In this document: one piece after another, positions 9,631 through 15,400 of the stretch
Position numbering within the stretch: the first letter of the stretch is position 1
Layout of the letters: every line of letters begins with the position of its first letter
Notes under the pieces: generated by a model
What the model was told of the DNA's origin: nothing
Databases searched by the model: none
The model's input: the letters and a program-made list of their open reading frames with translations, nothing else
Translations under genes and position numbers: made by a program
Assembly: GCA_903844385.1 (NCBI GenBank)
Contig: CAIMTJ010000042.1
Coordinates: 1 to 64,000, forward strand
Direction: 5' to 3'
Length of the DNA: 64,000 nucleotides
Source: an uncultured Burkholderiales bacterium
GTDB lineage: Bacteria; Pseudomonadota; Gammaproteobacteria; Burkholderiales; Burkholderiaceae_C

Positions 9631-11034
9631 CTATTTGGATGATGGCGGCCCACTCGAGAGCCTCAGCGGCAAGGGCAGGACTGCTGGCGAGGGGGGTGGA
9701 GCAGCAAACGGATTCAACCCCACTGCGCCTGGATTGGATGCAGGCACTGTTGGCGAGACGGGGTGAGGCGGCGAATCCGACAAAGTTTTAAGAAATGACA
9801 CCACATCGTCGACCTCCGATGGGTTAAGCGCAGGCCCATCGGCGGCTTTTCTATTAAAGGGTGCACGGTCGCTCACCAGGTTGGGGAGATAGGCGACTGG
9901 TAAATCGTTGGGGACTCCAGCGGGGCCGTACCAACGTTTGGGGTTGGCGTTGCGAGTGGCGTAAAAACTCACCACTTCGTTCAAGTTGGTGAACACGCCG
10001 TTGTGCATGTAAAACTCCCGCTGCGCCACATTTCTCAAGGACGGCATGCGAAAAGCGCCACAAAATTGTTCAATCGTGACACCCGCTGGCACATTGGAGC
10101 TCAATGCTGGCTTTTTGCGTTGAGGACCACAAAGCCCCAAATCAAAGTAAGAGGGGTTGGCGTTGGCAGGAATTTTTGGATTTCTAGGGATGCCCGTTGC
10201 GTACATTGCAAAATCAGTGAACAAATTATCACTGGGCACTTGAGAGGTTGGATTCATCAAGTGGCAAGAGGCGCAATTGCCCTTCAACGGATCCATGAAC
10301 AGCTTGAGACCACGTTGCTCGGCAGCGCTCAGGCTGACTTGCCCTTTCACAAACTGATCATACTTGGAGTTAAAAGCATTGAGGGCGGGGCTTTTCTCAA
10401 AGGCGGCAATGGCTTGCGCAATGGCTTGAAACGCGGTGTCGGTATTGCCAAATACATTGGCGCCAAAAAGTGTCACCATATCCCTTGAGTAATTGGAGTT
10501 TCGAACTTTGGCCACGACTTGCGCAGCACTCGCGTTGTTCATCTCAGCGCTGGAGAGAAAAGGGGCCATGGCCTGCGCCACCAATGTGTCAGCGCGTCCA
10601 TCCCAAAACAGCCCACCCCTGGGATCGGTGTCGTTGCCCAGCACCCTGAAAGAAAAGCTGGGCACAAATGAGCTGTAGGCGTTTTGCATGGCATTGCGAC
10701 TGCCAAACGAATTGGGAGTACTGCCCAGCGGCACGCCAATTCTGGATCCATTGAGACTGGAAAAACCAGTGGCAGGGTTATGACAATTCACACAAGCGGT
10801 GCCGGCGGGCTGGGAGAGATTTTTATCATTGAAGATCTTTTGCCCCAAGCTTTGCAGTGTCACTTCAGGGGCCGGTTGAGAAAAACCAGGCGCAGGACTG
10901 GGGGTGGTCTGCGCCTGGGCGTGGAAAGACCAGAGCAAGAGGCCTGCGAGGCTGCAGGCAAGGCGGATGCCTTGACGCTTGGCGATCAGGGCCATTTTGG
11001 CCAGTGGGTTTGTGAGGTGAAGACGGTGTTTCAT
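9631..11034 (-). CDS. Di-heme cytochrome c peroxidase / MauG-like protein
   Basis: Two CxxCH motifs (ACVNCHNPATGFSS and NCASCHLMNP), N-terminal signal-like hydrophobic segment, Pro-rich C-terminus. Confidence 0.88.
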   Translation of the reverse strand: MKHRLHLTNPLAKMALIAKRQGIRLACSLAGLLLWSFHAQAQTTPSPAPGFSQPAPEVTLQSLGQKIFNDKNLSQPAGTACVNCHNPATGFSSLNGSRIGVPLGSTPNSFGSRNAMQNAYSSFVPSFSFRVLGNDTDPRGGLFWDGRADTLVAQAMAPFLSSAEMNNASAAQVVAKVRNSNYSRDMVTLFGANVFGNTDTAFQAIAQAIAAFEKSPALNAFNSKYDQFVKGQVSLSAAEQRGLKLFMDPLKGNCASCHLMNPTSQVPSDNLFTDFAMYATGIPRNPKIPANANPSYFDLGLCGPQRKKPALSSNVPAGVTIEQFCGAFRMPSLRNVAQREFYMHNGVFTNLNEVVSFYATRNANPKRWYGPAGVPNDLPVAYLPNLVSDRAPFNRKAADGPALNPSEVDDVVSFLKTLSDSPPHPVSPTVPASNPGAVGLNPFAAPPPSPAVLPLPLRLSSGPPSSK

Positions 11035-11131: not shown

Positions 11132-12658
11132 TTAGTTGGGGGTGGCCGGCTGAAAATCTCGAATCTGATTGACCGAATTGATCACTTGGTATTCAATGGT
11201 CAGGGGGGTCTTGGATTTCACCAAATTGGGCAAATCATTGGGGGGTGGGGGCAACACGGTGCCGGGAATCAAACTCATGGTGACGGGGTTGCCCGCAATG
11301 GAGAAGGTCAAGGTGGAGAGGTTGGCCGCGTAGCTCAGCAAGTAGCCCGATTGTTGAATCACCGATTGGTTGGGCGGCGTCAAGGTGCAATTGATCGATT
11401 GCGCCACCAACGGCATGCCCGGTGGTCCCATCTTGGCAATGATGTCGACTTGAATAGGATTGGGCACATTTTGTGCCGGACAACTCTTGTTGATCACCCC
11501 TGGCACGTTGGTTCCCACCACCAGACTACCACGAAGATTGATGCTCACAGGGTTGGCCACCCAAGGAATCGCACCCTTGAGTTCAACTTGTCCTGCAACT
11601 TGGGCTTGCAGCGCTGTGTTGTTGCTGCTGGTATTGACCTGGGTCACTGTCAAAACCCCGTTGGTGTTGAGCACGTTGAGTTGGACCAGCGCAGAACTTG
11701 ACGGCATTTGTGAGACCAAGTTGGGCGGGATTTGAAGGTTCAGACCTTGGGTTTGGAGTTGACCATTTTGCACATTGCCCGCCGAAGTGGGCACGCTGAT
11801 CAAGAGCGTTTGACCATTGCTCGGTGTTGACGTCGCATCGAGCACGCGCTGGGCAGCAAAGACATTGCCGCTACTCACCTGAGAAGCTTGAACCCAGGCC
11901 CTGATGAGGCTGCCATTGCTGATGCTGGTGGGCAGTGCATTGAGGGCGTGGACGGCAGTCGCAGCGCCACTTTGGTTGATGAGCAAATCGTTGTTATTTC
12001 GACCCATCACGATTCCACTGACCAAGTTGTAAGCAGGTGCTGCACTGAGCAATTCAATTCTCGAGGCTTGCAACACATGGGCATTTTTAGTCGAATCAAA
12101 AACCCATACACCATACACCTGCACTGCCACATTGTTTTGCAAGACATTCAAATTGGTCAAACCCGACAAAACCGTGGCGTTGCCCGTGGCGGTGTTTTGC
12201 GGCAAGACCTGAACCCATTGACCCAACACCTGAAAATAGTTCGATTGGACAGAAGCGGTGACGGGGCCGCGCAACAGGGGAACGATGGTGATGATGCTCG
12301 CCACGCCCGCTTGGGACTGGGTAATCTTCACGCGCTGGCCCAATTGAGTTTGGGTGAGGGTGAACTGACCGGTTTCATCGTCGGTTTGGCTAATGGCCGA
12401 GCTGTCGTCGACCTCAACACCATCCACAATCACACTGCCAAAGCCCGCAATCAAGCCTTCAATGAGGCCACTCCCTCCACTGCCCACGCCCCCAGGAGCG
12501 TTCAAACTCAGGCTCACCCCAGCGCCGCCACCGCAAGACAGCAACGATAAGGCCAGGGAAAATACACCCAAACGCGAAACCAAGGCTTGGCGTGAGCGAC
12601 CCCGCTTTAGGCAAGAGACGACGTGCATGAGACAGGCATCAAGATTGGAGACGCTCAT
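11132..12658 (-). CDS. DUF5666-like exported (putative lipoprotein) repeat protein
   Basis: Lipobox-like SLALSLLSCGGG; repeated beta-rich segments resembling DUF5666 (GLIAGFGSVIVDGVEVD..., GVASIITIVPLLRGPVTAS). Confidence 0.7.
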   Translation of the reverse strand: MSVSNLDACLMHVVSCLKRGRSRQALVSRLGVFSLALSLLSCGGGAGVSLSLNAPGGVGSGGSGLIEGLIAGFGSVIVDGVEVDDSSAISQTDDETGQFTLTQTQLGQRVKITQSQAGVASIITIVPLLRGPVTASVQSNYFQVLGQWVQVLPQNTATGNATVLSGLTNLNVLQNNVAVQVYGVWVFDSTKNAHVLQASRIELLSAAPAYNLVSGIVMGRNNNDLLINQSGAATAVHALNALPTSISNGSLIRAWVQASQVSSGNVFAAQRVLDATSTPSNGQTLLISVPTSAGNVQNGQLQTQGLNLQIPPNLVSQMPSSSALVQLNVLNTNGVLTVTQVNTSSNNTALQAQVAGQVELKGAIPWVANPVSINLRGSLVVGTNVPGVINKSCPAQNVPNPIQVDIIAKMGPPGMPLVAQSINCTLTPPNQSVIQQSGYLLSYAANLSTLTFSIAGNPVTMSLIPGTVLPPPPNDLPNLVKSKTPLTIEYQVINSVNQIRDFQPATPN

Positions 12659-13515
12659 GATGGCTCACCCGCTGCTTGAGAGCTCGATGCGGCCTGCCCT
12701 GATGGGTCTGCCGCAAACGTGAACAACCCCAACCTGAAGCGATGCGGCGCATCGCACCCCTCATCGTCTTTCACCATTTGGGTGGCGGCTTGCACAATTT
12801 GTTTGAGAGCTTGAGACCAAAGTTCACGCGCCATGTCATTCAAGCGCTCAATGGAGTCTGCACTCAAGCCATCGGCAAACACACTTTGCTCTAAAAATTT
12901 TCGACCCTCAGGGTTCAAGAGGTTGTGGATACCCGCAGACAAGTGATCGGCCACACTCACGGCGAGCATTTGGCTGGCTTCTTTGTTTCGAGCGTCTGGG
13001 CTGAAACTCTCCTTGAGCAAACGAACTTGCGAGCCCAAATCTTGAGCAACTCCCAAACGCACCATCTCCATGAGGACGGATCGAGGATGAAAATCTTTGG
13101 ACACCGACTGCGCGAGCTGCTCAAACGAAGGCTCGGCACCTGAATAAGCGATGGCGTCGCCCAATCCGAGACTCAACCAACGGGTAACGACTTGACTGGC
13201 TGCACTGGGCTTGCCCCAGTGCTCGCGCAGTTGCTGCACTTGCAGCGCATCCATGTTCAATTCCTCGCGGTAGGTCCTCACCTCCTTGCGATGCAGTCCA
13301 GACAATAAACTCACTGCTGAATCAGACGGCTTGCGCTCCAAGCGCTCCAACTCCATCAAGGCCATCTTCCAAAACAAGGGCTTTAAGGCCGTTGCAAACT
13401 CGGTGTAGCCAATTCCTGTGCGACTCATCCACATGACCAGTGGCTGAACAATGGCGAGCATCTCCTCTAAGGACGACTGCTCCATGGGCTCTGAGTTGGA
13501 TGGATGATTGGGCAT
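12655..13515 (-). CDS. DUF6502-like protein, possibly DNA-binding
   Basis: 286 aa; N-terminal helical region RTGIGYTEFATALKPLFWKMA...SAVSLLSGLHRKEVRTYREEL has an HTH-like appearance; overlaps the next gene by 4 bp. Confidence 0.65.
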   Translation of the reverse strand: MPNHPSNSEPMEQSSLEEMLAIVQPLVMWMSRTGIGYTEFATALKPLFWKMALMELERLERKPSDSAVSLLSGLHRKEVRTYREELNMDALQVQQLREHWGKPSAASQVVTRWLSLGLGDAIAYSGAEPSFEQLAQSVSKDFHPRSVLMEMVRLGVAQDLGSQVRLLKESFSPDARNKEASQMLAVSVADHLSAGIHNLLNPEGRKFLEQSVFADGLSADSIERLNDMARELWSQALKQIVQAATQMVKDDEGCDAPHRFRLGLFTFAADPSGQAASSSQAAGEPS

Positions 13516-13525
13516 GAATTGATTG

Positions 13526-13543
13526 TATGGGAAATTTACCCAT
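13526..13543. promoter_or_regulatory. Imperfect palindrome (TATGGGAAATTTACCCAT) just upstream of the DUF6502 start codon
   Basis: ATGGGAA-ATT-TACCCAT, one mismatch between arms, same motif as the two palindromes at 13681-13728. Confidence 0.55.
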
Positions 13544-13680
13544 TTATAAAATAATTTTTGAATGACTCCAATTCCAACTTATTTTGAAGCCCAGCAACTG
13601 CAGCATATCCTGATTAAATCCTGAACATATTCTTTTTTGACTACTTATGATTTCAATTAATGCCAAAGACCCTCCTTATT

Positions 13681-13701
13681 ATATGGGAAATATTCCCATA
13701 T
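13681..13701. promoter_or_regulatory. Perfect palindrome ATATGGGAA-ATA-TTCCCATAT (putative operator)
   Basis: 9 bp arms, 3 bp spacer, read directly. Confidence 0.7.
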
Positions 13702-13707
13702 ATTTAC

Positions 13708-13728
13708 ATATGGGAATATTTCCCATAC
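13708..13728. promoter_or_regulatory. Second palindrome TATGGGAA-TAT-TTCCCATA in inverted orientation to the first
   Basis: Reverse complement shares TATGGGAAATATTCCCATAT with the 13681-13701 site; centres 27 bp apart. Confidence 0.7.
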
Positions 13729-13837
13729 ACTCATTTTGCTACTTTCGAAAGTCTTGCTGACACTTTCACGGGGGTTAAAGCCAACAGCAGGACTTCCAAG
13801 TGGCCCGCATTCAACATTCAATTGGGAGAAAAACACC

Positions 13838-15400
13838 ATGAGCAACGATCTGAGCACGAGCGCTGGCGGCGTATTGCCCATCACGCTGGACACCACCAAC
13901 ACCTTCACCACCATTTTTGGCACGGCCGCGGCCAATGCCATCACGGTCAACGGCCACACTTGGGTGGCCGATGCAACCACCCACCTCTACGAAACCAGCA
14001 CCGACTTGGCCGCTGAGTGGCACGGATACTACTTGGCCATGCAAAACGGACAAGGCGCGAGCCTGAACAATATCCAACGCTTGGAGGGCAACGCCGAGGC
14101 GGTGTTTGTCAACACGGCCTTGCGTGATCTGAGCGCTGCCAAGCTCAAAGTCGACCGACAAGACCTGCAACGCGAGTTCGATGCCATCCAAGCGAGCACC
14201 GTGGGCGCCAATGTGAGCTTGACGGCACCCATGACCACCACCCAGTACTTAAGCGTAGAGCACACGCTTCAATCCAACGACACCTTGTCTGAATTGGCCA
14301 TGCAAGGCCACGGTTTGGACGGGACGGGCTTGGCACGTTACGCCGGATACGCCAAAGACTTTCAAAACAATGGGGACAAAACCACCCTTTTCATCGGTGG
14401 GGGGCTCAACAACAACACCAACGCCGTTGCCAAGTTTTTAGATGACAACATCCTCTCCAATATGCCCTTTGTCGTGGTGGAGCACAATGGCAAATTTGAC
14501 CAACTCAATGAAAATGCCAATATAGAAAACACCCTGACGCAGGCCGTGAGCGCCTTGGATGACAGCATGTTTTATCGAATCTATAGCGCCAGCGATTTTG
14601 CCAGCAACGCCTCGAGCGCCCATGTCAATTTTGTATCTCCGGCGTTGACCTTCCTCAATGGGCAAACCACAACGGCACCCGCTGGCTTCATCGTCACCTT
14701 GGAGGGCAATGTGGTCTCAGGCACCATCACCAGCACCGCCCACACTTGGGTGGCCAATGCATCGGGGACATTTGAAACCACAGCAGATTTGGCCACCGAA
14801 TGGAGCAAGGCCTACCAAGACTTGAGCACCAATGCCGGGGTAAACTTAAGTCCCGAATTGCGCCTAGAAGCCAACGCCCAAGCTGTGCTGCTCAACACAG
14901 GCCTGGCCAAAGCAAGCACCACCGTCCAAGCAGCCTATCGATTCGATCTCCAACGCCAGTTCGACGCGGAATTCGCCGCCATGGCCTTGGCGGGTGTCAA
15001 CCCCGCAGCACCCCTGACACTCCAAAGTTACTTGGCCACTGAACACGCCTTGCAAAGTAACCCACAACTCGAAGAGTTGGCCATACAAGGGCATGGGCTC
15101 ATCAACCCCGTCGCGAGCCCATACAAAGGTTACACCGAACAAATTCAAAACAGGGTTGACAACAAAACTTTGTTTGTGGGCACTGGGCTCGATCACAATG
15201 AGGCAGCGGTCCCCAACTTGGTGGACGATGTGATTTTGTCGCACATGCCCTTTGCTGTGGTGGTCAAAAACGGCCAACTCAAGCAACTCAACCAAAATGG
15301 CACCGTCGAGTCTTTGGCCAGCGATGCGGTCATGGCACTCAATGCCTCCATGCACACCACCGCTTTGAAAGCGCAAGATTTTTCACTGGTGAAAGCGTAA
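13838..15400 (+). CDS. Uncharacterised protein with two tandem ~240 aa repeats
   Basis: 521 aa from MSNDLSTSAGG; repeat pairs HTWVADATTHLYETSTDLAAEW / HTWVANASGTFETTADLATEW, SVEHTLQSNDTLSELAMQGHGL / ATEHALQSNPQLEELAIQGHGL, VVVEHNGKFDQLNENANIE / VVVKNGQLKQLNQNGTVE. Confidence 0.85.
   Translation: MSNDLSTSAGGVLPITLDTTNTFTTIFGTAAANAITVNGHTWVADATTHLYETSTDLAAEWHGYYLAMQNGQGASLNNIQRLEGNAEAVFVNTALRDLSAAKLKVDRQDLQREFDAIQASTVGANVSLTAPMTTTQYLSVEHTLQSNDTLSELAMQGHGLDGTGLARYAGYAKDFQNNGDKTTLFIGGGLNNNTNAVAKFLDDNILSNMPFVVVEHNGKFDQLNENANIENTLTQAVSALDDSMFYRIYSASDFASNASSAHVNFVSPALTFLNGQTTTAPAGFIVTLEGNVVSGTITSTAHTWVANASGTFETTADLATEWSKAYQDLSTNAGVNLSPELRLEANAQAVLLNTGLAKASTTVQAAYRFDLQRQFDAEFAAMALAGVNPAAPLTLQSYLATEHALQSNPQLEELAIQGHGLINPVASPYKGYTEQIQNRVDNKTLFVGTGLDHNEAAVPNLVDDVILSHMPFAVVVKNGQLKQLNQNGTVESLASDAVMALNASMHTTALKAQDFSLVKA

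Follow-up and report, generated by a model that had tools for sequence, protein, structure and literature searches.

Palindromic sites upstream of DUF6502 genes strongly suggest a family of autoregulatory DNA-binding proteins tied to exported DUF5666 proteins

Background

Three palindromes lie between a DUF6502 gene and a divergently oriented gene of an uncultured Burkholderiales bacterium, and the question raised by this locus is which protein reads them and to what effect. The locus belongs to a stretch of 64,000 nucleotides, hereafter referred to as the window, to which all positions refer. A sequence-only reading had described the palindromes as an operator set for one regulator acting on both divergent units, with autoregulation by the DUF6502 protein as its favored idea. 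DUF6502 (PF20112) is a family without an assigned function, which makes the proposed operator and role new, and no mention of DUF6502 or of the motif strings was found in the literature searched. Two well-known types of regulator provide a frame for comparison, namely the TetR- and LexA-type systems, in which a dimeric helix-turn-helix (HTH) autorepressor acts on a palindromic operator over its own promoter, and the MerR-type activators, which bind within promoter spacers of 19-20 bp.

Results

The DUF6502 gene (12655-13515, minus strand) encodes a 286-aa protein, for which we propose an autoregulatory DNA-binding role, and its product matched PF20112 above the curated cut-off (E = 2.8e-8, 33.4 bits; cut-off 27). 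Its stop codon is overlapped by 4 nt by the gene of a DUF5666-like exported lipoprotein (11132-12658, minus strand), and a di-haem cytochrome c peroxidase (CCP_MauG, by domain match; 9631-11034, minus strand) is the third gene of the unit, an order that recurs in genomes G005, G033, G018 and G114. The lipoprotein of the window scored under the cut-off for PF18914 (DUF5666); homologues at its position are clear DUF5666 proteins and are likewise annotated in named genomes. A DUF6502 gene followed directly, usually with an overlap, by a DUF5666- or FecR-type exported protein is the gene order in relatives, and the window shows this DUF6502-DUF5666 operon type. In G091 (L043:6409-8172), a FecR-domain protein replaces DUF5666 after DUF6502. 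On the other side of the palindromes, a divergent open reading frame (13838-15400, plus strand) encodes an internally duplicated protein of 520 aa with two similar halves, which had no Pfam or NCBIfam match over cut-off and was found only in the window genome and G005 among the 100 genomes searched.

Sequence and repeat searches identified the perfect palindrome TATGGGAA-N3-TTCCCATA at 13682-13700 and again at 13709-13727. We treat these copies as candidate operators 2 (TATGGGAAATATTCCCATA, with equivalents in G005 and G033) and 3 (TATGGGAATATTTCCCATA), and an imperfect palindrome at 13526-13544 (TATGGGAAATTTACCCATT, conserved in position in G005 and G033) as candidate operator 1; no strand is assigned to any of the three. 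Operator 1 lies 11 bp upstream of the DUF6502 start codon at 13515, and operators 2 and 3, spaced 27 bp from centre to centre, lie about 170-210 bp from it. The stretch 13682-13701 is the exact reverse complement of 13708-13727 over 20 bp, with a loop of 6 nt. Allowing up to three mismatches, the window holds three matches to the palindrome against 0.23 expected, a number reached in none of 100 shuffles, and this bears out the earlier description of three palindromes in front of DUF6502. That description had given the last copy as a 21-mer at 13708-13728, which is right in position and one base too long, as the last base of the 21-mer is C. A genome-wide search, which had been suggested as a check, found the perfect form at this locus only in the whole 2.83-Mb draft genome, where the sole other match with up to two mismatches is GC-rich and lies on contig C105.

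Comparison with related genomes pointed to the gene to which these sites belong. G033 has no duplicated-protein gene, yet the divergent promoter and the three palindromes are all present there, as is the DUF6502 unit. The more distant genus members G018, G080, G113 and G114 carry one palindrome each, 27-30 bp before DUF6502. The conserved partner of the palindrome is thus DUF6502. Of the proposed control of both divergent units by one regulator, the DUF6502 side is strongly supported by the comparative evidence, whereas a conserved control of the duplicated-protein gene is not, given that G033 kept the sites without that gene.

Candidate operators 1 and 3 coincide with predicted promoters. The predicted DUF6502 promoter (13522-13550, minus strand; 9/12 matches) consists of a -35 box TTTATA (13550-13545), a 17-bp spacer containing operator 1 and a -10 box TACAAT (13527-13522), with 6 nt between the -10 box and the ATG at 13515. 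The predicted divergent promoter (13703-13731, plus strand), which has an equivalent in G005 and G033, likewise places operator 3 in a 17-bp spacer between TTTACA (13703-13708) and TACACT (13726-13731). Across 76 sites of the family, promoters with the palindrome in their spacer (at least 8/12 matches) were sharply concentrated at the predicted register, with 11 in the direction of DUF6502 and 17 divergent. Other offsets mostly gave 0-7, apart from one further peak at +15 (15 promoters), an offset at which a -35-like word overlaps the right half-site. The palindrome makes up a promoter spacer of 16-18 bp in the window and at about a third of the 76 sites. An exact fit within the ~17-bp spacer of a sigma70-like promoter, directed to DUF6502 or divergent, is frequent in the family. 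In many relatives (among them L132, L134, L138, L025 and L181), the palindrome is followed by the word CGTCAA, which reads as a -35 box (TTGACG) on the opposite strand; divergent promoters that have the palindrome for a spacer are thus a recurrent layout.

Within the genus, the core lies just upstream of the gene in 7/7 genomes with a window-type DUF6502 (window genome included), and two further genomes carry it at a contig end, followed in G036 by an apparent DUF6502 N-terminus and in G028, with the same layout, by a start codon. Among 84 genomes, all exact intergenic matches to the core except three are at DUF6502 genes, and the remaining matches fall inside open reading frames. We then scanned the span from -220 to +20 of 86 distinct DUF6502 genes of the order, whose proteins are as little as ~21-25% identical to that of the window, and found TGGGAW-N3-WTCCCA upstream of 29 genes exactly and of 47 with one mismatch allowed; dinucleotide shuffles gave 0.03 and 0.29, respectively, coding and downstream DNA gave 0, and control motifs gave 0-4. 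The motif is therefore conserved upstream of orthologous DUF6502 genes, as the autoregulation idea of the sequence-only reading implied. After collapsing the set at 50% protein identity, the core was present in 14/30 clusters. No site was found at 39/86 genes of the order with one mismatch allowed, and a subgroup with the helix GVHRKDVRYW or GVHRKDVRFW (L112-L117; family f43, genus g89) showed no recognisable palindrome near the start. Relatives often have two or three copies at spacings of 27-39 bp, so the multiple set of the window is not unusual for the family. Among named plasmid records, between one and three sites were found in those of Azospirillum lipoferum, Pseudoroseomonas cervicalis, Microvirga lotononidis and Methylocystis iwaonis, which belong to another class, and no site was seen at the DUF6502 copies of Rhizobium, Variovorax WDL1 and Acinetobacter.

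The same order-wide set was informative on the start of the transcript. In 26/86 genes, the end of a -10 box (at least 5/6 matches) lies 6-7 nt from the DUF6502 start codon on its upstream side, against about one gene per position elsewhere, and these genes have almost no Shine-Dalgarno sequence. Start codons had been taken as those nearest to the profile start, with ATG preferred, and the -10 box played no part in the choice. Given this spacing and the near lack of Shine-Dalgarno sequences, the DUF6502 mRNA is probably leaderless in the window's order. The signal was present in only 2/30 genes sampled class-wide and is thus limited to the order set.

Sampling across the class revealed DUF6502 in 102/369 genomes and a second operator type. 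The core with its 5-bp gap (N5) occurred in 0/30 class-wide DUF6502 genes, while TGGGA-N6-TCCCA with up to one mismatch occurred in 18/30, a frequency that is not independent because the N6 spacing was spotted in these same data and then counted there; gaps of 4, 5, 7 and 8 gave none. Independent support for N6 comes only from four order-set genes of the N6 clade (L162, L163, L165 and L167). The distribution over the protein tree is the stronger argument: in a FastTree phylogeny of 124 DUF6502 proteins (a single method), one fully supported clade of 35 genes accounts for nearly all N6 users. This clade has zero N5 calls and includes four N6 genes from the window's order, and outside it the site-bearing DUF6502 genes are nearly all N5. 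Genome G346 has both types beside the matching paralogues, with N5 at L106 and L129 and N6 at L167. A third branch, with a TRRE or NRRE recognition helix, carries the palindrome TGTGCA-N3-TGCACA; the rule relating helix to motif has exceptions at L130, L127 and L149 (Fisher test, P = 8e-4, phylogeny ignored). It is hence the neighbouring protein, rather than the host genome, that operator type tracks, and the best explanation is that DUF6502 itself is the binder. N6 labels outside the clade (L112, L113 and L116), as well as one at L030, were one-mismatch matches far upstream and were judged to be due to chance.

An HTH-like N-terminal region had also been claimed for the protein. We propose an HTH at residues 64-85 (SDSAVSLLSGLHRKEVRTYREE; 13261-13326, minus strand) on the basis of conservation and a fragment model. 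Among 63 diverse DUF6502 members, all of which matched PF20112 when scanned, R76 is invariant (63/63) and G73 nearly so (62/63). In the model of fragment 14-92 (pLDDT 67.6), helices 65-72 and 76-91 are paired in an HTH-like manner, and the PDB matches listed for it include many HTH and winged-helix proteins (FapR, FadR, DeoR, DtxR, Lrp-type and ScpB), none of them significant (best E 2.5). Sequence searches matched DUF6502 to no known HTH family, and a whole-protein AlphaFold model built without an alignment had a pLDDT of 39, too low to use. A profile search of the PDB yielded only designed helical proteins, which were judged unrelated. The claim is thus favored by conservation and a moderate-confidence fragment model and lacks a significant fold or sequence match, so that the modeled fragment supports an HTH fold but does not prove it.

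Discussion

Versions of one palindrome that change with the branch of the protein lie before many DUF6502 genes across the Pseudomonadota. These results strongly suggest, at the level of sequence comparison, that DUF6502 proteins form a DNA-binding switch over themselves and an adjoining exported protein. For the window, we put the probability that DUF6502 is an autorepressing HTH regulator of the operon with the exported DUF5666 protein at roughly 80%. A DUF6502 dimer would bind TGGGAW-N3-WTCCCA through the half-site TGGGA and repress its own promoter and, in the window, the divergent promoter as well. Because it is the palindrome that separates the -35 and -10 boxes, RNA polymerase would be shut out by a bound dimer, and repression by such occlusion is the simplest reading of the overlap. 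Operators 2 and 3, 27 bp apart, may allow dimers to bind cooperatively at the divergent promoter. The DUF6502 mRNA would begin at or beside the ATG and carry the exported DUF5666 protein as its second cistron, often with the cytochrome c peroxidase next in the unit within this genus, and the C-terminal part of DUF6502 may read a signal.

A different role for the same protein is that DUF6502 binds the sites and mainly activates, the upstream copies recruiting polymerase. Many relatives with a site at -60 to -120 would suit this role, as would the distance of the window's upstream pair from the DUF6502 start; nevertheless, we regard it as unlikely, since the position of the palindrome as the promoter spacer fits occlusion and the spacer lacks the extension to 19-20 bp that marks MerR-activated promoters. 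It is less probable still that an unlinked regulator binds the palindromes and DUF6502 is merely its target. DUF6502 is a putative binder for which no known DNA-binding fold was matched significantly, which would leave room for such a regulator. However, the gap and the half-site of the operator vary with the clade to which the neighbouring DUF6502 belongs, paralogues within a single genome included, and the near confinement of the exact intergenic motif to DUF6502 genes in the genus is not what the wider regulon of an unlinked protein would produce.

The suggestion that the paired palindromes form a cruciform or an RNA hairpin or terminator fared worst, and we consider it highly improbable. 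A stem of 20 bp can form from the pair (-29.3 kcal/mol, z = -6.4), which was flagged as terminator-like, but two copies of any palindrome pair with each other, and most relatives have no paired perfect copy, with single copies in G018, G113, G114 and G080 and a diverged pair in G005. Moreover, the predicted divergent start lies past the palindromes, so the hairpin would be absent from the divergent RNA. Autorepression by DUF6502 from sites within its promoter remains the reading that we favor.

The logic of an autorepressor acting on a palindromic operator is well known, and what is new here is the regulator family, the clade-specific operators and the tie to DUF5666. The locus resembles TetR- and LexA-type systems in the palindrome over the regulator's own promoter, the several copies and the coverage of a divergent promoter, and differs from them in the lack of a sequence or significant fold match, the DUF5666 partner and the leaderless-looking regulator mRNA. 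With MerR-type systems it shares an operator in the spacer; in contrast to these, the spacers are 17 bp at both window promoters and DUF6502 does not match MerR, which makes activation by untwisting unexpected. We consider it likely that DUF6502 is a hitherto unrecognised transcription factor family that spans Alpha-, Beta- and Gammaproteobacteria. Its operator would be readable from sequence (TGGGA with a 5- or 6-bp gap by clade, and TGTGCA in the third branch), and each member would mainly control the adjoining DUF5666 protein and its own transcript, which in the window's order is probably leaderless. A widespread family would thereby gain a likely function, together with a binding site that is open to testing, and the natural operator variants offer a test of how recognition helix and dimer geometry read DNA. 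The tie to DUF5666, also a family of unassigned function, may offer a route to the signal and the envelope role of these proteins.

The locus further holds a conserved stem-loop at the start of the divergent transcript (13738-13806, plus strand; also L033 in G005 and L034 in G033), which follows the pattern CACTTT..AAGTCYTGYTG..CTTTCACGGGGGTTWAAGCC..CAGCAGGACTTCCAAGTG directly past the divergent -10 box. An Rfam search of the region gave only matches far under the gathering scores, mostly microRNA models on the long hairpin. Only three of 84 genomes have the element, at 85-89% identity. As G033 retains it despite lacking the duplicated-protein gene, it could represent either a small RNA or a leader that has been orphaned.
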